DNA from: Cyclobacterium sp. SYSU L10401
Lineage (GTDB): Bacteria; Bacteroidota; Bacteroidia; Cytophagales; Cyclobacteriaceae
Length of the DNA: 64,000 bases
Assembly (NCBI RefSeq): GCF_010993705.1
Contig: NZ_WOFO01000004.1
Coordinates: 372,001-436,000 of the forward strand
Direction of reading: 5' to 3'
Position numbers and translations under genes: made by a program. Positions 24,565-33,653 of the stretch are shown in pieces. The notes under the pieces were generated by a model. The model was given only the letters and a program-made list of their open reading frames with translations, had not been told where the DNA came from and searched no databases. How positions within the stretch are numbered: the stretch's first letter is position 1; every line of letters starts with the position of its first letter.

Positions 24565-24705
24565 TGGGGATTGGGGGTTTGAGATTGAAAGGGATTGAGG
24601 GGAAAGATGGAGAGAGATTGATTTGGTTAAAGAGATTGAAGGGGAAAGAGATTGAAAAAGATTGAAGAAAAGAGATTGAGAGGGCGGGCTGCGATTGACA
24701 ACGCT
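24565..24705. repeat. Degenerate short repeat, GATTGA-rich
   Basis: About seven GATTGA words, mostly within AGAGATTGA or AAGATTGAA, recur at irregular 10-25 bp spacing just downstream of araC. The purine-rich strand is the plus strand. No protein-like frame is seen. It looks like an expanding simple-sequence or slippage tract. Confidence 0.5.
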
Positions 24706-24780: not shown

Positions 24781-25020
24781 CCTATCCTAAATTTGGGCTA
24801 AAGGCCAGGACCTTTAATTGCTAATTTTTTTTGAACGGGCTAAAGCCGCATTCCTATTGAGGTAGGTTTGGATATTGGTTTATCTGCGAAAAATCGTCTA
24901 CAATTTCAGGATCAATCCGATGAAATCAATTGCCTAATAGCTGTAGGTACTAGGGAATGCACCAAAATCTCTGGCTTTAGCCAAACCATCCATCCCAAAA
25001 GACTAAAAATCCCAATGTCA
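24781..25020. repeat. Palindromic repeat block R1 (GGCTAAAGCC family)
   Basis: This single unit of the family runs in order: TTTGGGCTAAAGGCC (variant left box), GGGCTAAAGCCGCATTCCTATTGA, a diverged ATTGCCTAATAGCTGTAGG hairpin box and TGGCTTTAGCCA (24972-24983). The left GGCTAAAGCC and right GGCTTTAGCC cores are reverse complements of each other. No gene is seen. It lies between convergent araC and the first propeller lipoprotein. Confidence 0.65.
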
Positions 25021-25072
25021 CCATAAATACTCCGGCTCGCTCGTGGAATGGGTACAGGATAATATCCTAATT

Positions 25073-26215
25073 TCATTCACTTATCGCCACCCTAACAAAT
25101 CCCATCTCATCGTCCATGTTTTCAAAAACCCATAGCATCCCTTCCTTGACAAAATATTTAGCAGAGGGGTTGATATTAAGCTCAGGTATTGGCATTTCAC
25201 TTAGCAGATTGAATTCCATGTCAAAAACACTGAGAAATACATCGATATTAGTTGTTTCATGGAGTAACCTTCTCTCTCGTTTTTCTTCACCAAAAGTTCT
25301 TGAGGAAGAAAGCCTATAATATCTTTCCTTTTGCGGATCCAAAACCAAAGGGCCAAAACTTACTTGTTCGTGATAAGATTCCAGGGCATTGATCCTGTCC
25401 TCAATTGAATTTATTAAGTCACCTTCGGTAGCTATTGTTACCTTGCTTGGTGTGTGTTGGGAGGAATAGGTCACTTGTTGAAGTTCATCGTTTTCCGGAG
25501 AATACACATAAAAATCATTGGAAAACTCATGGGATACGATCACCTTATCCTGTTGACTGGTTATAAAGACCCGGGGATCCCATTTATTATAAGTTGTCAG
25601 ATCTCCAAGTGTGTATTTTTTATAATTCTCGTTAGGATCAATTTCAAATGTGGAAATAAGGGTGTCCGCTATGTTTAGCTTCTTTAATGATATCCTATTG
25701 GTCGAATGGTCAGTAACCAATCCAAAGGCCAGGTGATCAAAGCTGGGATTTGCCTTTTGCTGGTATACATTTTCTTTGTCATCCATTCCTCCCTGTGCGA
25801 GGGAAATATTATTCCAATCAAATTTTTTCACCAGCCTGCCTTCTAAATTGAAATGCCCGGCATATTGCCCGGCCAGGAACAATTTTCCATTCCCCATACT
25901 TTTGAGCGAGGAGATCCATGAACCGGTACCATTCGGGCCTTCTTTTTGAAGCGGAAATTTGTCCACGAGTTCCAGCCGGTCCAGATCTATCTTTTCAATG
26001 CTGTGGTCAAATTCGCTGTAGTTATAAAGAAACGCATCTTCCTGACAGTAATCCGAGACGTGTAATAGGTATTCCAAGTACAAAATCTCCCCCATGGAGT
26101 CTACTACCACGGAATCAACCCTGTAAGAGATTGTTTCAACGTTTGCGGAGTCTTGTGGTTTTCCGCAGGAAAAACTTACAATAAGTAAAATACCAAGGAA
26201 AGTTCTGTTGAACAT
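25073..26215 (-). CDS. Propeller-type lipoprotein (DUF4221-like), copy 1
   Basis: The 380-residue protein has a signal peptide ending VSFSC (Cys17), so it should be an outer-membrane or periplasmic lipoprotein. The body is beta-rich with repeated strand-turn units, consistent with a six-bladed propeller. Conserved landmarks shared with the 27042 gene are EKIDLDRLELVDKFP, KEGPNGTG and a C-terminal MLWVFENMDDEMGFVRVAISE split over two strands. I recognise it only as DUF4221/6-bladed-propeller-like, and no function is known. It stands alone between repeat blocks R1 and R2. Confidence 0.7.
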   Translation of the reverse strand: MFNRTFLGILLIVSFSCGKPQDSANVETISYRVDSVVVDSMGEILYLEYLLHVSDYCQEDAFLYNYSEFDHSIEKIDLDRLELVDKFPLQKEGPNGTGSWISSLKSMGNGKLFLAGQYAGHFNLEGRLVKKFDWNNISLAQGGMDDKENVYQQKANPSFDHLAFGLVTDHSTNRISLKKLNIADTLISTFEIDPNENYKKYTLGDLTTYNKWDPRVFITSQQDKVIVSHEFSNDFYVYSPENDELQQVTYSSQHTPSKVTIATEGDLINSIEDRINALESYHEQVSFGPLVLDPQKERYYRLSSSRTFGEEKRERRLLHETTNIDVFLSVFDMEFNLLSEMPIPELNINPSAKYFVKEGMLWVFENMDDEMGFVRVAISE

Positions 26216-26340
26216 TGGATTTAAAGGTGTCTATTATAAAAGTAAAGCAACATTTCCTAAACCTATTCATTTTAAGCACATAATGGAAGTAAAATGATTT
26301 AGTTTAACCATTTTTAACTCCAAATCATGGAGAGGTAAAT

Positions 26341-27000
26341 TGGTATTGGCTATTTCCTATTGAATATTTATATCAATTGCCTACTGCTTTAGCTGTAGGC
26401 AATAATGAATTCGTCAGCATCATTGGCTTTAGCCAAAACTTTATCCCAAACCCTAACATCCAAATTTATAGTTCAACCTGTGAATTGAGCAATTACCTAT
26501 TGAAGGGGGTAATGGTTTGCTGGTGTTCTTCCCAGCAATTTTGGCTAAAGCCAGGGGATTTGAAATCTAAATTTACGAATGGGCTAAAACCCAATCCTAT
26601 TGAGGATTGTTCGGTTAAAGATAGATCCATCATGATCCGGAACCCGCTTTACCTATCATCAATCGCCTGATAGCTGTAGGCAATCGGATTATTGTCCGCA
26701 TCCCTGGCTTTAGCCGAATCTGGATTACCCTAAACCTGTCCTATCCAAATTTGGGCTAAAGCCCAGGACCTTTAATTCCAAATTTTTTTGAATGGGCTAA
26801 AGCCACATTCCTATTGAAGTAGGTTCGGATTCCGGGAGTCTGCAAATTTTTTTATAAGCCAAAATCCCTCTGCTATTTTGGAATCGTTCCTGTTGAATCA
26901 ATTGCCTCCTGCTTTAGCTGGAGGCAATGTTGAATTTATCGATGTCCCCGGCTTTAGCCAAACCATTTATCCCTGAAAGCTCAAATAAGAATCACACCAT
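26341..27000. repeat. Palindromic repeat block R2 (GGCTAAAGCC family)
   Basis: About two and a half units fill the gap between two propeller genes. The perfect nested hairpin TTGCCTACTGCTTTAGCTGTAGGCAA is split here as TTGCCTAC (26377 on) and GTAGGCAA. Six exact GGCTAAAGCC or GGCTTTAGCC cores occur at about 26426, 26543, 26706, 26753, 26794 and 26950. The stretch 26401-26960 is nearly the same, base for base, as 29650-30190 in block R3. Translating it gives only repeat-derived nonsense peptides. Confidence 0.75.
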
Positions 27001-27041
27001 AAATGCTTCGGCTCCCTCATAAACAGGATAACCTCATAATG

Positions 27042-28151
27042 CTATTCGCTAATCGCCAACCTGACATATCCCATTTCATCTTCCATATTTTCATACATCC
27101 AAATTTCCCCATCCTTGGCAAAATGCCTTTCGGGCTTTTTGGTCAATTGCGGGACTAACGTTTCTCCAATTTGATTTAAATCCTCGTCAAATGCGGTTAA
27201 ATATACCTTTGTTTCGCTCTCGTTTTCCTCATAGGAAAACCGATAAAAACACTGCCTGTCGCTATCCCAAAAGGGTGACATGAAACTAATCTCTTGTTTA
27301 TACCTTGCATATTCAACCTTAAATTCCTCAGGAGTTTCATGTACTTTCTTATACGCTTTCTCTTTTTGGTTAGCAGTAAGCTGGCTAGCGTATGATTTCA
27401 TAAACAGAGAATCCATCTCTGTGTCATACCACATCAAAGCATTCGTAATTTCATTCCACAGCATCACTTTTCTACCAAACTTTTCTATCCCCACTTTTGG
27501 TGTTTGATGTATTGTACTCTTCCCCAAGTGGTACATAAAGCTATAGTCAGGCACCTTATCAAAGCTTTTTAGCTCAACTCTGGCAGTTTCATATTCCTCC
27601 AAATGGAGCAGTCCCAAAACAAACCTTTTATCCTCATATCCTTGAATCAATCCATATAATCGCTTGGTATCGGGGTCCAATAACACCCTATCTCCCTTTA
27701 ACAGGTCGCCCCCGTTATGCCAATCCGCCAAAGAGAAGTTTTCGTAATAAACAGTCATTAATTTTTCACCTTCCATGGAGAATAAGGAGCTCTGATACAT
27801 ACCCGTTATGGAAACATGGCTTTCATCGATAATTCTCATCACCCCTATCCCCGGCCCGGTCCCGTTCGGTCCTTCTTTTTCAAAAGGGAGCTTTTCCTCC
27901 AAGCGTAACTCATCCAGATTAATTTTTTCCAGGGTATGGTCACCACCATTGAAATTATAAAAGTACTTTCCGTCCGTGCCCATGTCCGCATTCAATAGTT
28001 GATGCTTCAGAAATAAAATCTCATCTCCCGGTTCAATGATCACGGTGTCCAGGGAAAATTGCCGATTGGAAAAGTAGTCCGAACCGGTTTTGCCCATTTT
28101 TCCCTCACAGGAAACCAATAAAATAATGGCGAGGTAACATACATTCCGCAT
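27042..28151 (-). CDS. Propeller-type lipoprotein (DUF4221-like), copy 2
   Basis: The 369-residue lipoprotein (lipobox ILLVSC near residue 15) is a clear paralogue of the 25073 product. They share EKINLDELRLEEKLPFEKEGPNGTG in order, split over adjacent strands, and the ending ENMEDEMGYVRLAISE. It is beta-rich throughout with regular strand spacing, suggesting a propeller. It starts 18 bp after the stop of the 28170 gene, so the two form an operon. The role is unknown; surface sensing or glycan binding are guesses from the lipoprotein and propeller features. Confidence 0.7.
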   Translation of the reverse strand: MRNVCYLAIILLVSCEGKMGKTGSDYFSNRQFSLDTVIIEPGDEILFLKHQLLNADMGTDGKYFYNFNGGDHTLEKINLDELRLEEKLPFEKEGPNGTGPGIGVMRIIDESHVSITGMYQSSLFSMEGEKLMTVYYENFSLADWHNGGDLLKGDRVLLDPDTKRLYGLIQGYEDKRFVLGLLHLEEYETARVELKSFDKVPDYSFMYHLGKSTIHQTPKVGIEKFGRKVMLWNEITNALMWYDTEMDSLFMKSYASQLTANQKEKAYKKVHETPEEFKVEYARYKQEISFMSPFWDSDRQCFYRFSYEENESETKVYLTAFDEDLNQIGETLVPQLTKKPERHFAKDGEIWMYENMEDEMGYVRLAISE

Positions 28152-28169
28152 CTTGTATTAGTTTTAAAA

Positions 28170-29360
28170 TCAATCCATACTATTCTTATTCTCCACCCTG
28201 AGTTCCAACCGAAACAACCGGAAATAATCTCGCTCCACTTCTTCATCCGGTTTTTCTTGCATCCAGAGTTCATTATTCCTGAGCAACATGCTTTCCGGAG
28301 TCAATCCATCGGGAACAAAATCAATGACCCTATGGCCTTCAGCGTCCAGAATAGCAATTCTTTTGGCATATTTTTTCAGCATTCTTTCCCTATATAGTAA
28401 ATTTTCTGCCTGGGTCTTATTCTCGCTTTCTCCTTCCTTATCTGCATCCGAATAGCCAGGGAAATAGGCGATCACAAAATATCCATCTATCTTCTTGATA
28501 TTCAATATATTGCCTGAAGTGAACATTAAGGTGTGATCGACGGAATTATCAATTGAACCCCTGAAATACCGGTAATCGTCCAAGTCAAAAGGTATACTTG
28601 AAAGTAAAGAATAGGGTTCGGTTAAGCTGTAAACATAAATCACGGGTTCGGCCCCAAACACCACATACATTTGGTCATCATCGATTGTAAATATTGGCCG
28701 CCAGGCATTCATGTAAAAGAATTTCCCGTTTCGAAATAAACTGCCTTCAGGAAGCTTGATAAAAGGCTCTCTGCTACCGGATTCTGGGTTAAGCAAAAAC
28801 ATCAAATCCATTTCCTCGTAAAACCGGGTATCAGATTCAGAAATGCCTTCAGGTACCTCTTGGTCAGGATATACATAACGATTGCCCGATTTTTCCATTC
28901 CAAAACCCATTGCATCCCTTCTAAAATAGGGTAGCTGAAATTTTTTGAGTTTTACCCTGTTTAAAAGCTTGCCTGAAAAATCATAAGTCATAAAACCATT
29001 GTATCCATAGACCAGAAAAGTATTGTCATCAAGAATTCTTAATGTTGACATCAGTTTTCCATACCCATCAGGGACATCTCCCAATTTGGAGAAGGAGTCG
29101 AGAATTTCGCCCTCAAAATTGGCAACCATGATGTCTTCAGTAAATTGCCTGTGCTCCATAAACAAAATGGTACCTGACTTAGGGTCAATGTCATGGACGG
29201 AAGGATTTCCGAGGTAATCAATCTTTATACTGTCCAGTTTTTCAAAATACACGGCCGTATTTGAACCTTCGTTTTTTTTATTACCACCTTCATCCTTTTT
29301 CCCGGAATCGCAGGAAAACAACAACACGACAAACAAAAAGGGAATAAAGATTCGATGCAT
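28170..29360 (-). CDS. Propeller-type lipoprotein, tandem duplicate A
   Basis: The ATG at 29360 (MHRIFIPFLFVVLLFSCDSG) gives a normal lipoprotein signal with Cys17; upstream in-frame ATGs exist at 29381 and 29423. The roughly 396-residue product shares landmarks with the 30292 product along its length: YFEKLDSI, VHDIDPKSGTILFMEH, LGDVPDGYGKL, and the ending MLLRNNELWMQEKPDEEVERDYFRLFR given here in two parts. It is a six-bladed-propeller-like protein of unknown function. Its upstream 40 bp is also duplicated (29420-29460 and 31538-31577). It heads a two-gene operon with 27042. Confidence 0.7.
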   Translation of the reverse strand: MHRIFIPFLFVVLLFSCDSGKKDEGGNKKNEGSNTAVYFEKLDSIKIDYLGNPSVHDIDPKSGTILFMEHRQFTEDIMVANFEGEILDSFSKLGDVPDGYGKLMSTLRILDDNTFLVYGYNGFMTYDFSGKLLNRVKLKKFQLPYFRRDAMGFGMEKSGNRYVYPDQEVPEGISESDTRFYEEMDLMFLLNPESGSREPFIKLPEGSLFRNGKFFYMNAWRPIFTIDDDQMYVVFGAEPVIYVYSLTEPYSLLSSIPFDLDDYRYFRGSIDNSVDHTLMFTSGNILNIKKIDGYFVIAYFPGYSDADKEGESENKTQAENLLYRERMLKKYAKRIAILDAEGHRVIDFVPDGLTPESMLLRNNELWMQEKPDEEVERDYFRLFRLELRVENKNSMD

Positions 29361-29419
29361 AGCCGGTGAATTTTTCAGCATGGACAGAGGAAAACCTGTA
29401 TTAATACCTGGGGTATATT

Positions 29420-29460
29420 TCAACTATTAATTTATTAATTAAAATTTGAAAATCAAACTT
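29420..29460 (-). promoter_or_regulatory. Duplicated upstream block of propeller gene A
   Basis: TCAACTATTAATTTATTAA and the following 20 bp are identical but for one base to 31538-31577 before the tandem duplicate. The sequence is AT-rich and probably holds the promoter, but no clear -33/-7 pair was found. Confidence 0.4.
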
Positions 29461-29499
29461 TTCTTAGGAGACCAATTAGATTTAAGATTTGCCCGATCC

Positions 29500-30215
29500 G
29501 AAATTTGGGCTGAGGCCCATGAACTTTAATTGACATTTTTTGGCATGGGCTATTTCCTATTGAAGAGTGATCGCCCATTGATTTCGGCCATAATTTGGAA
29601 TCAGGGTTCTTTTGGTTCAATTGCCTCCTGCTTTAGCTGGAGGCAATATGGAATTTTGACTTCTTCCTAGGCTTTAGCCAAAACTTTATCCCCAAACCCT
29701 ACAATCCAAATTTACAGTTCAACCTGTGAATTGGGCATTTACCTATTGAAGGGACTAATGATTTGCTGGTGTTCTTCCCAGCAATTTTGGCTAAAGCCAG
29801 GGGATTGGAAATCTAAAATTACGAATGGGCTATATCCTATTGAGGGTTGCTCGGTTAAAGATAGATCCATCATGATCCGGAACCAGCTTTACCTATCATC
29901 AATTGCCTGATAGCTGTAGGCAATCGGATTATTGTCCGTATCCCTGGCTTTAGCCGAATCTGGATTACCCTACATTTGTCCTACCCTATATTTGGGCTAA
30001 AGCCCAGGACCTTTAATTCCAATTTTTTTTGAATGGGCTATTTCCTATTGAGGTAGGTTCTGATTCCGGTAGTCTGCAAATTTATTCATAAGCCAAAATC
30101 CCTCTGCTATTTTGGAATCATTCCTGTTGAATCAATTACCTACTGCTTTAGCTGTAGGCAATATAGTTTTTGCCAACATCCCTGGCTTTAGCCAAATCAG
30201 GTCCGAAATAGGTCT
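29500..30215. repeat. Palindromic repeat block R3 (GGCTAAAGCC family)
   Basis: About three units lie in a non-coding gap of roughly 870 bp. Core palindromes occur at about 29670, 29789, 29946, 29994 and 30184. Nested hairpin boxes lie at about 29619-29646 (TTGCCTCC...GGAGGCAA, with compensating changes on both arms) and 30136-30162. The form GGGCTATTTCCTATTGA at 29547 and 30036 is a deletion variant of the box GGGCTAAAGCCGCATTCCTATTGA split over positions 24837-24860. No gene is seen. Confidence 0.75.
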
Positions 30216-30291
30216 AGCACACACTGTTTTTGGACCAAGGCTGAATTCCTAATAATTAAGTTGTTGCATGCAATGATCGCTTAGGCCTGAT

Positions 30292-31500
30292 TCATTGATC
30301 AGACCGATCGATTTTCAGCCCCACCCGAAACAAACGGAAATAATCCCGCTCTACTTCCTCATCCGGTTTTTCCTGCATCCAGATTTGGCCATTTCGAAGA
30401 ACCATAGAGCTGGCTATAAGCCCTTTTGGTTCAAAATCGCTTAACCTATTGCCGGAAGCATCGAAAACAGCCATTCGATAGGGGTATTTTTCCCGCATGC
30501 CCTTCCAGAAGTTAATGGCTTCCTCCGGCGTCAAATTGGCAAAAGAAGCCTCCTTATCCGCCGAATTAAACCCCGGAAAGTAGGAAACAAGGATATATTT
30601 ATCTATCAACTTGATGTTTAGTATTTTCCCGGAAGTTCTGGCCTGACCAAAAAACCTTACATCGGAGGAATACTCATTCTCACCTTCAGAAAACCGATAG
30701 TCAGGTAAATCAAGTGGTATCTCTTCGAGCAAGGGATGAGGGGCAGCTCCATCAAAAATGTATACCCTTGGCTCCAGCCCAAAAACTACAGCAATTTTGT
30801 TCTCTGAAACCGTAAAGGCAGGAGCCCAGGCATTTCGGAAGAAATACTTTCCCTTCAAAAAAATACTGGATTTAGGGAAATGAAGAAGCGGCTTGGTTTC
30901 GCCTGTATGGGGATTCAGAAATACCAATGGATGCAGTGCTGCATAATCTTCCCCACCATTGGGCAAGCTAACACTACTACCTGTATTGATATAAAGGTAT
31001 CCATCTCCTAACGGTTCCATGCCAAACCCTAATCCGATACGTGTAGACCCCTGATAGGGATTATCAGTATGTTTCACCAAAGATTGAAGCTCCCCATCAA
31101 AATTATAGGTCAAAAAACCTTTTGATCCATAGACCATGAAGGAATCATTTCCAGCAATTTTTAGCGAAGCCAACAAATTTCCGTAGGTGTCGGGAAAGTC
31201 TCCCCATTTCGAAAAAGATGTCAGAACAGATCCCTCAAAATCAGCTACCGTAATTACCTGGGAGGTCTCCTTATGTTCCATAAAAAGCACCTTTTTGGAT
31301 ACAGGATCAATGTCATGGAAAGTGGGACTGCCTAAGTATTTAATCCGAATACTGTCAAGTTTTTCAAAGAAGACGGATGTACCTGACCATGCGGTATCTT
31401 TATTCCCGGTATCCCTGTTTCCAGAATCACAGGAAAACAACAAAAGGACCATCCAAAAGGGATACAATAAACGATTCATGCATGGTGAATTTTTCAGCAT
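30292..31500 (-). CDS. Propeller-type lipoprotein, tandem duplicate B
   Basis: The 402-residue product has MLKNSPCMNRLLYPF then LLLFSCDSG. The start may be the ATG at 31479, giving Cys17 as in duplicate A. It matches duplicate A along its length: FFEKLDSIRI, FHDIDPVSKKVLFMEH, WGDFPDTYGNLL and a C-terminal QEKPDEEVERDYFRLFRVGL. The predicted fold is a six-bladed propeller on the cell surface or in the periplasm. The flanking repeats and the 40-bp upstream block are duplicated with it, which points to segmental duplication. The function is unknown. Confidence 0.7.
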   Translation of the reverse strand: MLKNSPCMNRLLYPFWMVLLLFSCDSGNRDTGNKDTAWSGTSVFFEKLDSIRIKYLGSPTFHDIDPVSKKVLFMEHKETSQVITVADFEGSVLTSFSKWGDFPDTYGNLLASLKIAGNDSFMVYGSKGFLTYNFDGELQSLVKHTDNPYQGSTRIGLGFGMEPLGDGYLYINTGSSVSLPNGGEDYAALHPLVFLNPHTGETKPLLHFPKSSIFLKGKYFFRNAWAPAFTVSENKIAVVFGLEPRVYIFDGAAPHPLLEEIPLDLPDYRFSEGENEYSSDVRFFGQARTSGKILNIKLIDKYILVSYFPGFNSADKEASFANLTPEEAINFWKGMREKYPYRMAVFDASGNRLSDFEPKGLIASSMVLRNGQIWMQEKPDEEVERDYFRLFRVGLKIDRSDQ

Positions 31501-31537
31501 AGAAAAGGTAAGACCTATTACGATACCTGAGATTTAT

Positions 31538-31577
31538 TCAACTATTAATTTATTAATTAAAATTTTAAAATCAAACT
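31538..31577 (-). promoter_or_regulatory. Duplicated upstream block of propeller gene B
   Basis: This is the second copy of the AT-rich block at 29420-29460, beginning TCAACTATTAATTTATTAA. Its conservation outside coding sequence suggests a promoter or operator kept after duplication. Confidence 0.4.
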
Positions 31578-31609
31578 TAAATTAGGAGCCAAACCCGATT
31601 TTGGAATTT

Positions 31610-32440
31610 GCCCAATCCGAAATTTGGGCTAAAGCCCAGGACCTTTAATTCCTAATTTTTTTGAATGGGCTAAAGCCGCATTCCTATTGAGGGGGATTGG
31701 GATTTCGGAATGTCCGAATATATATTTATAAACCAAAACCCTTCTAAAATTTCAGAATCAATCCCTTTAGATCAATTGCCAAATAGCTGTAGACAATCAG
31801 GAGTGCACCAAAAACCCAGGCTTTAGCCAAACCTGGATTACCATTCATTTCTCCTTTACCCAAATTGGGCTAAAGCCCATGACTTTTGATTGCAATTATT
31901 TAGGAATGGGCTATTTCCAATTGAAGAGGGATCGCCCATTGATTTCGGCCATAATTTGGAACCAGGGTTCTTTTGGTTCAATTGCCTACTGCTTTAGCTG
32001 GAGGCTATAGGGGATTTTGACACCTTCCTTGGCTTTAGCCAAACCTGGATTACCCAACACTTGCCCGATCCTATAGTTTGGGCTAAAGCCCAGAACATTT
32101 GGTTGCTATTTTCTTGGAATGGGCTATTTCCTATTGAGGAGGTCGGATTGAGGGAAATCCAGATTTTTATTAATAAACCAAAATCCTTCTAAAACTTTAG
32201 ATTCATTACCCTTTGAATCAATTGCCTACTGCTTTAGCTGTAGGCAATAATGAATTCGTCAGCATCATTGGCTTTAGCCAAAACTTTATCCCCAAACCCT
32301 AAAATCGAAATTTACAGTTCAACCTGTGGATGGGGCAATTACCTATTGAGTTCTTCCCATCAATTTTGGCTAAAGCCAGGGGATTGGAAATCTATAATTG
32401 GGAATGGGCTAAAGCCCAATCCTATTGAGGGAAATTGAGG
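31610..32440. repeat. Palindromic repeat block R4 (GGCTAAAGCC family)
   Basis: This is the longest block, roughly three to four units. Exact cores lie at about 31625, 31667, 31820, 31867, 32031, 32079, 32270, 32368 and 32406. Nested hairpin boxes lie at about 31980 and 32219-32246. The segment from 32220 onward repeats the start of block R2 (ATAATGAATTCGTCAGCATC) closely, so material has been copied between blocks. The gap of about 1 kb holds no gene. Confidence 0.75.
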
Positions 32441-32498
32441 AGCTCCAAATTTTTATTTTTTAACCAATACCCCATAAAATTTAAAGATATAATTCCGC

Positions 32499-33653
32499 TC
32501 AAATCTCCGACTTTAACTCATAAACCGAATAAGTGGAATAGGTAGGTTCATCGTCTCCTCCATACTTGTCCCTAAACAAAAGTCGTTTGCCAGGTAAGGA
32601 AAGGATCTCAGAATGGGGTTCGCAGCCTGCTGGAAAGCCCATCTCCTCCTCTTGTTGCACCCCATCCTGGATGAGAATGAAATGGTACAAACCGGAATCT
32701 CTATAGGGAAAATAATTCGGGTCCTTGGCCCTTCTCGCCTCGGTGGCCGCTTCGGAAAGTCCCTCGAAATAAAGTACTCCATAGAAATCATCCTCAAAAT
32801 TAAACAAGGCCTTATTTCTTGCATTTTGGACGGAAGAAAAACGCCGATGATCGAAATTCAGCATCTCTTTTAGCCCGAAATCCTGGTCCATATCGTAAAC
32901 TCCAATAGTATTTGACCGATCGTAGGTCAGGTACAGGCGATTAGCGGCTTTGTCCAGTGCAAAAACCTGTACCGGATTTGCCCGTTTGGAATCTGGATTT
33001 ACCGCTACTTCCGGCAGCAGTTCCGGATCATTGGCAAAGACCCATTCAAGCCCCCCTTTCCGGGGGTTGTAGCGTTCGATCAGGTAATCAGGACCGTCTC
33101 CCCCATTCATTCCTCCTGCAGAATTATTGACTCCTGAGAAAAAATTGGTAAAAAAATAGGGGTCTGAGGCATCCTGCAACCGGAAATAAGGAACCCTTAG
33201 CTGAGGACCTGAATAAAACCTGATCACCACTTCAGAAGCAAATCGTATCCTATTTTCCACTTCCCAATCGGAGTTATACCACAAAAATTCACTTGAGCTT
33301 TGTAGAAAATAGCCTCCTGCTTCCTGATTGAAGGAAGCTGCCAACAAACTGCTGTTGTACTCATTGGGACCCTCCCCTATCCGATAAACTGCTTCCAAAA
33401 CCTTTCCTTTTCCATCCAACACCAAAAATTCCTCCGTAATTTGGTCATAGGCCAGAAAACGATCTTCTATTGGGTGATAGTCAAGCAACCTGACGGTATT
33501 TTCCCGGTTTATACGGATGGAGTCCACCTTTGCCAAATAATAGGTAGTAGCTTCACTCATTTCCTCTTCTGACTTACTGCTTGTATTACAGGAAATTACG
33601 ACCGGCAATGCCATAATGATAAAGACTCCCGCTTTGTGTATTCTATCTAGCAT
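32499..33653 (-). CDS. 6-bladed beta-propeller lipoprotein
   Basis: The 384-residue protein has a signal peptide and lipobox (PVVISC, Cys22). It resembles the '6-bladed beta-propeller' family common in Bacteroidota: a short N-terminal strand (VDSIRINRENTVRLLDY), IGEGPNEYN in place of the KEGPNG motif, then alternating strand repeats. It is more distant from the four other propeller lipoproteins than they are from each other. It lies just past repeat block R4. No enzymatic motif was found. Confidence 0.7.
   Translation of the reverse strand: MLDRIHKAGVFIIMALPVVISCNTSSKSEEEMSEATTYYLAKVDSIRINRENTVRLLDYHPIEDRFLAYDQITEEFLVLDGKGKVLEAVYRIGEGPNEYNSSLLAASFNQEAGGYFLQSSSEFLWYNSDWEVENRIRFASEVVIRFYSGPQLRVPYFRLQDASDPYFFTNFFSGVNNSAGGMNGGDGPDYLIERYNPRKGGLEWVFANDPELLPEVAVNPDSKRANPVQVFALDKAANRLYLTYDRSNTIGVYDMDQDFGLKEMLNFDHRRFSSVQNARNKALFNFEDDFYGVLYFEGLSEAATEARRAKDPNYFPYRDSGLYHFILIQDGVQQEEEMGFPAGCEPHSEILSLPGKRLLFRDKYGGDDEPTYSTYSVYELKSEI

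Follow-up and report, generated by a model that had tools for sequence, protein, structure and literature searches.

The question raised by a 64,000-nucleotide (nt) stretch of the Cyclobacterium sp. SYSU L10401 genome (RefSeq accession number NZ_WOFO01000004.1; positions 372,001 to 436,000), the whole of which is called the window below, is what the nested palindromic repeats packed between its lipoprotein genes are, and how they came to be there. An earlier note on the sequence had proposed either an element of the REP/MITE type (repetitive extragenic palindrome or miniature inverted-repeat transposable element) or a structured RNA family. The blocks of repeats in the window are probably arrays of a mobile, palindromic repeat that is dispersed in the genome and was spread by a TnpA transposase (HUH/Y1, subclass 1.2) encoded elsewhere in an array of its own, and sequence comparisons allow the whole to be read as a REPtron/PATE-like system in which the transposase is of the IS200 class. 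Compared genomes and stretches of sequence are denoted by G and L numbers.

Double-hairpin repeats around a Y1 transposase gene

The window was found to contain 22 exact GGCTAAAGCC/GGCTTTAGCC cores between positions 24838 and 32416, divided 12 and 10 between the strands, where 0.13 would be expected and the highest count in 100 shuffled sequences was 2. They fall in four blocks (24793–24985, 26341–26962, 29505–30196 and 31624–32428), and both the count of about 22 and the number of blocks given in the earlier note are confirmed. The boxes also keep the fixed order described there, as on the plus strand a B half (GGGCTAAAGCCC ... CCTATTGA) is followed by a reversed A half (TCAATTGCC hairpin ... 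GGCTTTAGCCA), and the pattern repeats. Two alignments of genomic copies (22 and 23 copies) identified the basic piece as a double-hairpin half of ~58–67 nt, in which a conserved outer hairpin, GGC-TAAA-GCC, is separated by 19–26 nt from an inner hairpin, and ATTGA follows as a tag. The type A inner hairpin is TTGCCTAC-AGCTAAAGCA-GTAGGCAA or a shorter form, and that of type B is GGAATGGGCTAAAGCCACATTCC or the short GGAATGGGCTATTTCC, with variants. Ten A halves, ten B halves and one partial B half alternate in the window, B in plus and A in minus sense, and the halves are used as inverted pairs. The tag directly follows the hairpin in 20 of the 20 listed window halves, and the GTAG/GTGG foot characteristic of RAYT repeats is not found there. 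Models built from type A (R1) and from type B (R2) each also match the other type on the opposite strand, and the two types therefore look like related, inverted halves.

Within the window the blocks do sit only around the lipoprotein genes, as the earlier note described, but this does not extend to the genome, where GGCTTTAGCC occurs at 60 sites (10 for the reversed control) and 7 of 16 stretches around sites outside the window carry the repeat, the other 9 having a lone core only. Model R1 has 25 matches in the genome, and a second dense cluster is located on another contig (L014:6575–11975) around a gene for a Y1 (HUH) transposase of 146 amino acids (L014:7419–7859) with repeat units on both sides. 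An assembly gap, seen as a run of N (L014:11734–11830), lies inside this array, and the copy numbers there are therefore a lower bound. With repeats that are dispersed, inversely paired and grouped around one Y1 transposase gene, the REP/MITE-type proposal is upheld.

Matches to R1 were found in all 12 Cyclobacterium genomes, in G012 (another genus of the same family) and in 4 of the remaining 46 genomes, and the repeat is thus not restricted to a single locus. Outside Cyclobacterium and G012, six genomes encode a TnpA of at least 55% identity, and R1 matched four of these but none of the 40 others; in G031 and G046 the fetched matches adjoin tnpA. The four Cyclobacterium genomes whose TnpA is 84% identical or more have 25, 31, 61 and 40 R1 matches, whereas the other eight, including G009 with a 69% TnpA, have 3–28 (one-sided rank test, p 0.004). 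At orthologous sites that align flush on both sides, Cyclobacterium genomes differ in block size by whole units: the block at 29505–30196 in the window has six halves and its counterpart in G006 has two, another site has seven halves in G006 and one in G003, and after tnpA there are eight halves in G004 and six in G000.

A partner transposase such as a RAYT had been suggested as something to look for, and a Y1 gene was indeed found, though its product is not a strict RAYT. The protein is assigned to Y1_Tnp in Pfam (PF01797; 96.9 bits) and passes the NCBIfam IS200/IS605 model NF033573 (62.8 bits; cut-off 55), but fails the RAYT model REP_Tyr_transpos (30.1 bits; cut-off 80). It carries the HUH motif together with Y---Q--HH, not the Y---NP of RAYT class 2, and with E <= 0.001 as the limit, the IS608 (ISHp608) transposases (E ~3e-4) were the only solved relatives found. 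Of 90 rows (three duplicates among them), 85 have Y---Q--HH; four of the other five are truncated or frameshifted, and the fifth, L123, is without the motif. Relatives of the protein are encoded in Cyclobacterium plantarum (95% identity), C. lianum (91%) and C. jeungdonense (84%). The tnpA array occupies the same place in G000, G004 and G008, where, with names read from translations, we take the neighbours to be a pair of genes for a thiamine pyrophosphate (TPP) enzyme and an aldehyde dehydrogenase on one side, and cupin, oxidoreductase and symporter genes on the other; none of those neighbours stands beside tnpA in C. jeungdonense (G001; L083).

In Quentin et al. (2018; PMC6006769), Y---Q--HH marks TnpAY1 subclass 1.2, which the available part of that paper describes as low in copy number, found mostly in Cyanobacteria and Bacteroidetes, sharing no insertion sequence (IS) properties and generally lacking the typical terminal structures of IS200. 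The present family agrees in motif, in low copy number and in occurring in Bacteroidota or Cyanobacteria, the exceptions being G024, with 26 distant matches, and L107, a contig labelled Planctomycetales. The latter (Planctomycetales bacterium MS499-59) encodes a TnpA of 58% identity with the same kind of flanking hairpins, reflecting either horizontal transfer or a mislabelled contig. The automatic repeat search of Quentin et al. required GTAG or GTGG, and subclass 1.2 is described without named repeats in the part of the paper available, whereas repeats flank the gene here. No report of these repeats, or of any subclass 1.2 repeats, was found among the papers listed by searches of open-licence PMC literature.

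The genome also contains a second Y1 transposase gene (L020:1492–1941; G000:C15:5047), whose product is 26% identical to the first and scored 19.9 bits with the RAYT model. It has different flanking hairpins of its own, including ACCCCGGGCGAAACCCGGGGT, which was found at 8 genome sites with up to 3 mismatches and at none for the control. In G004, a pair of halves adjoins a fragment of a second tnpA in that genome (residues 117–145, with a stop; G004:C32:511993; L246).

Repeat code, paired changes and the Flavobacterium elements

The relationship between repeat code and transposase clade was examined in 87 non-redundant tnpA loci, L022–L024 having been dropped as the same places as L081–L083. 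Perfect hairpins of at least 8 bp are concentrated in the first 300 nt on either side of the gene (2.54 per kb upstream and 2.49 per kb downstream; 0.47 and 0.08 in shuffles), with densities of 0.79 and 0.32 per kb at 300–600 nt and of 0.12–0.36 per kb beyond 600 nt. A GGCTNNAGCC core lies within 300 nt of tnpA at 47 of 52 loci of the gene's own clade but at only 2 of the 35 others, and in 1 of 43 control intervals 2 kb away. Of the 52 clade loci, 48 were placed by a tree of 79 proteins, in which they form one group with support of 99/99, and four by identity; the tree left out 11 of the 90 proteins, namely three duplicates, seven that are truncated, broken or motif-less, and L138. As the loci share descent, Fisher values for this association overstate the evidence. 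A neighbouring group of 15 has another code, AGCCCACGGTTTAAACCGTGGGCT with AAACCGTTTYAACGGTTT, at 12 of its 15 loci and at none of the 72 others, by a pattern defined after its loci had been seen. This double-hairpin code of the neighbouring TnpA clade, with members from Roseivirga, Chitinophagaceae, Saprospiraceae and others (L125–L135 and L032–L034), can also be written as CATAGCCCACGGTTTAAACCGTGGGCTATG plus AAACCGTTTYAACGGTTT.

At 24 of the 47 close loci and 20 of the 33 far ones, the upstream flank resembled the reverse complement of the downstream flank above all 60 shuffles, and direct likeness between the two flanks exceeded all 60 shuffles at 26 close and 24 far loci; seven of the 87 loci, with short or N-containing flanks, were dropped from this comparison.

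Compensating changes on both hairpin arms had been reported for the window, and this held for the TTGCCTAC...GTAGGCAA hairpin of type A but not for half B, where no paired change in the inner hairpin was found within the genome. Among 21 distinct genome copies of type A, 10 cells were changed on both sides (2.5 in shuffles). The covariation of this one hairpin persisted in an alignment across several Cyclobacterium genomes: in 131 distinct rows, in an alignment that was fitted to the model and includes some B copies, there were 193 such cells (59 in shuffles), 8 of the inner helix's 9 pairs were changed on both sides, and covariation was 0.293 (shuffles, 0.091; slid controls, no more than 0.080). 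By cruder measures the excess is not clear, however. The pairs changed on both sides numbered 4 in the 21 copies and 8 in the 131 rows, against 2.0 and 7.0 in shuffles, with 29 and 143 of 500 shuffles as high, and further pair types were not clearly above shuffles (10 vs 8.8 and 22 vs 22.4). Across genera, 27 of the 38 halves recovered next to tnpA combine an 8-bp stem in the inner hairpin with a loop of TAAA or TGAA, and 27 different left arms occur among the 38. These halves are the ones that gave an outer core and a hairpin, some hairpins by chance, among 104 tnpA flanks examined, and their paired fraction is 1.0 by construction as the search requires paired arms. The repeats fold strongly as single-stranded DNA, with energies that are only indicative as the L218 and L161 stretches begin away from the element end.

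A short form of the same design was found in Flavobacterium hydrocarbonoxydans (the L094 genome), which carries GGCTTTAGCCAAA 39 times (1 for the control), often in facing pairs 6–18 nt apart. In this species and its relatives, a paired element of 128–147 nt was identified by pattern in 35 stretches, and comprises TGAATWGCC, a hairpin, ~20 nt, GGCTTTAGCCAAA, a short linker, TTTGGCTAAAGCC, ~22 nt, a hairpin and GGCWATTCA; the 40 stretches examined were chosen from matches, except for three candidate empty sites, and 35 of 40 is thus not a rate. The copies are near-symmetric palindromes with inverted-repeat ends of the TTCA type. No target duplication was detected in 34 copies (L210 was dropped), observed and shuffled values being similar at k = 2, 3, 4, 5, 6, 8 and 9. 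A T precedes the left end in 88% of the 34, and only four pairs of sites are related over the left 150 nt, indicating that the sites are mostly unrelated.

F. hydrocarbonoxydans also carries a tnpA-bearing version of 610 bp, running from TTGACTAGCC to GGCTAGTCAA (L094:4897–5506), with the same design and tnpA in the middle. A Flavo-1 RNA (RF01705; 79.8 bits) at L094:8112–8189, ~2.7 kb from tnpA, is apparently unrelated. Five genomes of relatives of this species have many copies, and in the two with a close TnpA (G062 and G086) the core adjoins tnpA, on one side only in G086; among seven distant tnpA genes examined, the core was near one, ~350 nt away. The two genes that flank one copy, L162, have no copy between them in G084 and G093, a single hairpin in G082 and an element in G086. 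In G012, four of five places examined hold a single pair in the Flavobacterium order, with a linker of 33–34 nt.

Known systems and rival explanations

The organisation resembles that of REPtrons, in which a low-copy Y1 gene of the RAYT (TnpAREP) type is flanked by dispersed intergenic palindromes (REP, BIME or REPIN) and the repeat code is specific to the transposase. As in REPINs and BIMEs, for which the comparison uses the available part of PMC3116915, the unit is two repeats in inverse orientation, single or in tandem. It differs from RAYT systems in the missing Y---NP motif and the failed NCBIfam cut-off, in a TTGA/TTCA tag in place of GTAG/GTGG, and in having two hairpins per repeat where a REP has one. 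Copies number in the tens (25 R1 matches), whereas the accessible text of PMC8266576 gives hundreds for Escherichia coli REPs. The letters of GGCTTTAGCC do occur inside a GTAG-type Haemophilus REP in the available part of PMC2817692, which is taken for coincidence. A RepRanger table (PMC12306157) lists two Flavobacterium species, and the word transposase is absent from the portion of that text available.

PATEs, which are IS605-derived elements of haloarchaea, are likewise short and transposase-free, with near-terminal palindromes, no target duplication and a design common to a transposase-carrying element. However, they are without terminal inverted repeats according to the accessible part of PMC3119063, whereas the elements described here have inverted TGAATWGCC...GGCWATTCA ends.

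The protein family (HUH plus Y), the NCBIfam score and the absence of target duplication are shared with IS200/IS605 elements such as IS608 and ISDra2 (subclass 1.1), and an ordinary element of this kind with PATE derivatives, the same as IS608-like systems, could account for them. The ends of IS608 are not known to be inverted copies of each other. Here, by contrast, the two ends form inverted repeats and have two hairpins apiece, the place of tnpA is fixed in three Cyclobacterium genomes, and the Y motif belongs to subclass 1.2, leaving an ordinary IS200/IS605 element very improbable.

If the blocks are arrays of a repeat spread by TnpA, the enzyme would bind folded hairpins on one strand, with their TRAA loops, and cut at or near the TTGA/TCAA tag, and the paired unit would be moved or re-inserted as single-stranded DNA, a mechanism modelled on the IS200/IS605 and RAYT enzymes as described in the available part of PMC8266576. 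Tandem arrays may grow through re-insertion or through recombination between copies, and tnpA-bearing elements may have given rise to short derivatives by gene loss, the Cyclobacterium gene having become resident.

Several observations weigh against a spread driven by this transposase. In eight of the 13 genomes G000–G012 the repeats occur although no TnpA reaches 69% identity (G012 has 15 matches), and such orphan repeats either count against strict dependence on the transposase or mean that the gene has been lost. G083, G084 and G093 have many copies and TnpA relatives of near 40% identity only, the fetched repeat match in G026 and in G027 is on a different contig from tnpA, and 5 of the 52 clade members are without the core. 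For the two copies compared in Cyclobacterium (L007 and L234), the search for a clean empty site was unsuccessful. The L007 site is not a clean insertion because G008 shares the B half, without the 188 nt holding the A half, while G004 shares both halves, and the L234 site has differing leftovers in G006, G003, G000 and G001. The junction at L162 is unreadable because the spacers are too diverged, and the absence of that copy could be due to loss. Isolated pairs in Cyclobacterium stand in both orders, and TCAA...TTGA was for this reason dropped as the sole mobile unit. The changes in array size could also be plain recombination.

An RNA family, with hairpins transcribed as terminators, mRNA stabilisers or small RNAs and kept by selection for RNA structure, would suit the strong folding (calculated for single-stranded DNA), the compensatory changes in one hairpin and the single orientation of every copy in the window. 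However, copies elsewhere are found in both orders and orientations, the repeat code tracks the transposase clade, the Flavobacterium-type copies have no preferred strand because they are near-symmetric palindromes, and no Rfam match at gathering thresholds was obtained on the repeats in the window and six loci. The second proposal of the earlier note is thus very unlikely; secondary RNA effects of the repeats are possible. Local tandem duplication of the lipoprotein cluster and its intergenic DNA, with no mobility, does explain part of the copy number in the window, as block portions are 86–92% alike at offsets of 3234–3246 nt and 88% alike at 2361 nt, and some of the genes are paralogues. 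As a full account it is extremely unlikely, being refuted by the copies at other genome sites, in all 12 Cyclobacterium genomes and around tnpA. The arrays might instead persist as recombination substrates that let tandem lipoprotein paralogues recombine, delete and shuffle, and here the occurrence of arrays with DUF4221-type paralogues in several species, the non-orthologous look of some of these clusters and the whole-unit differences at flush orthologous sites point in the same direction. Yet 35 of 46 repeat-derived stretches, many of them short and some with a lone core, have no such gene, no rearranged gene order was traced to the repeats, and this explanation is considered quite unlikely.

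A palindromic repeat mobilised by TnpA would bear on the origin of domesticated RAYT/REP systems from IS200/IS605 elements, which is an open question. With one end design, this class-1 (IS200-type) family shows both states, an IS-like 610-bp element with short derivatives in F. hydrocarbonoxydans and a resident array gene in three Cyclobacterium genomes, and the system may show a jumping gene turning into a resident that spreads short palindromes. Subclass 1.2 gains a candidate substrate that comes with stem variants found in nature and with two or more clade-specific codes, and dense palindromes between Bacteroidota genes can be products of a transposase and not RNA genes.

The blocks and the genes between them

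In the window, all B halves are on the plus strand and were scored with R2, and all A halves are on the minus strand and were scored with R1. The first block consists of a B half at 24793–24860 (GGGCTAAAGGCC hairpin, spacer, GGGCTAAAGCC hairpin, CCTATTGA; 56.9 bits) and an A half at 24926–24985 (GGCTAAAGCC hairpin, spacer, inner hairpin, ATTGA; 55.1 bits). It is separated from the second block by a DUF4221 protein gene (25073–26215, minus strand; PF13970, 135 bits), which by feature order lies between this A half and the partial B half at 26341–26363 (GGCTATTTCCTATTGA; nhmmer match from 26341, with the end set by CCTATTGA at 26356). The second block continues with an A half at 26373–26437 (TTGCCTAC...GTAGGCAA hairpin; 85.5 bits), a B half at 26540–26603 (61.6 bits), a short-stem A variant at 26659–26718 (55.9 bits), a B half at 26751–26817 (66.7 bits) and an A half at 26898–26962 with the compensated TTGCCTCC...GGAGGCAA hairpin (76.6 bits).

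Two genes on the minus strand follow, the first encoding a DUF4221 protein (27042–28151; PF13970, 120.4 bits) and the second (28170–29423) a product without a Pfam match. The third block then holds a short B variant, GGGCTATTTCC, at 29505–29563 (60.4 bits), an A half with the TTGCCTCC...GGAGGCAA hairpin at 29617–29682 (73.9 bits), a short B variant at 29786–29843 (63.8 bits), a short-stem A variant at 29899–29958 (58.3 bits), a short B variant at 29992–30051 (71.5 bits) and an A half at 30132–30196 (78.8 bits). Beyond it lies a paralogue of the preceding gene (30292–31500, minus strand), the two products being ~46% identical. The fourth block comprises B halves at 31624–31690 (66.6 bits) and 32365–32428 (64.4 bits), between which are a short-stem A variant at 31772–31831 (57.1 bits), a short B variant at 31865–31924 (69.8 bits), an A half at 31978–32043 (71.1 bits), a second short B variant at 32078–32137 (72.0 bits) and an A half with the TTGCCTAC...GTAGGCAA hairpin at 32218–32282 (85.5 bits).

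The lipoprotein genes are most likely bystanders, their intergenic spaces having gathered copies. The three gene blocks in the window are of the linker type, in which outer hairpins face the gene; B lies on the upstream side of the genes and A on the downstream side, the arrangement that tnpA has within its own element. Among 31 gene-sized gaps in arrays, which come from 12 sources, several of them orthologous, 20 were of this type, 10 were same-sign and 1 was of the spacer type. Gap orientation is insufficient evidence for cargo, because whole blocks inserted between ordinary genes look alike. A wider proposal, judged unlikely, is that subclass 1.2 represents a second, independent origin of REPtrons from IS200-type elements, with clade-specific double-hairpin codes, and that the Cyclobacterium ends captured lipoprotein genes as cargo; the window would then be a tandem of units, some with a surface-protein gene in the place and orientation of tnpA.

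DUF4221-type genes were present in 11 of the 46 repeat-derived stretches tested, the window included. Clusters of DUF4221-type paralogues near repeats recur in Cyclobacterium (25073–33653 in the window, and L053, L069, L058, L075 and L052), and some of them, at 24–55% identity, look non-orthologous. A degenerate run of AAAGAGATTGA-like units is located immediately before the first block of the window, at 24585–24690.

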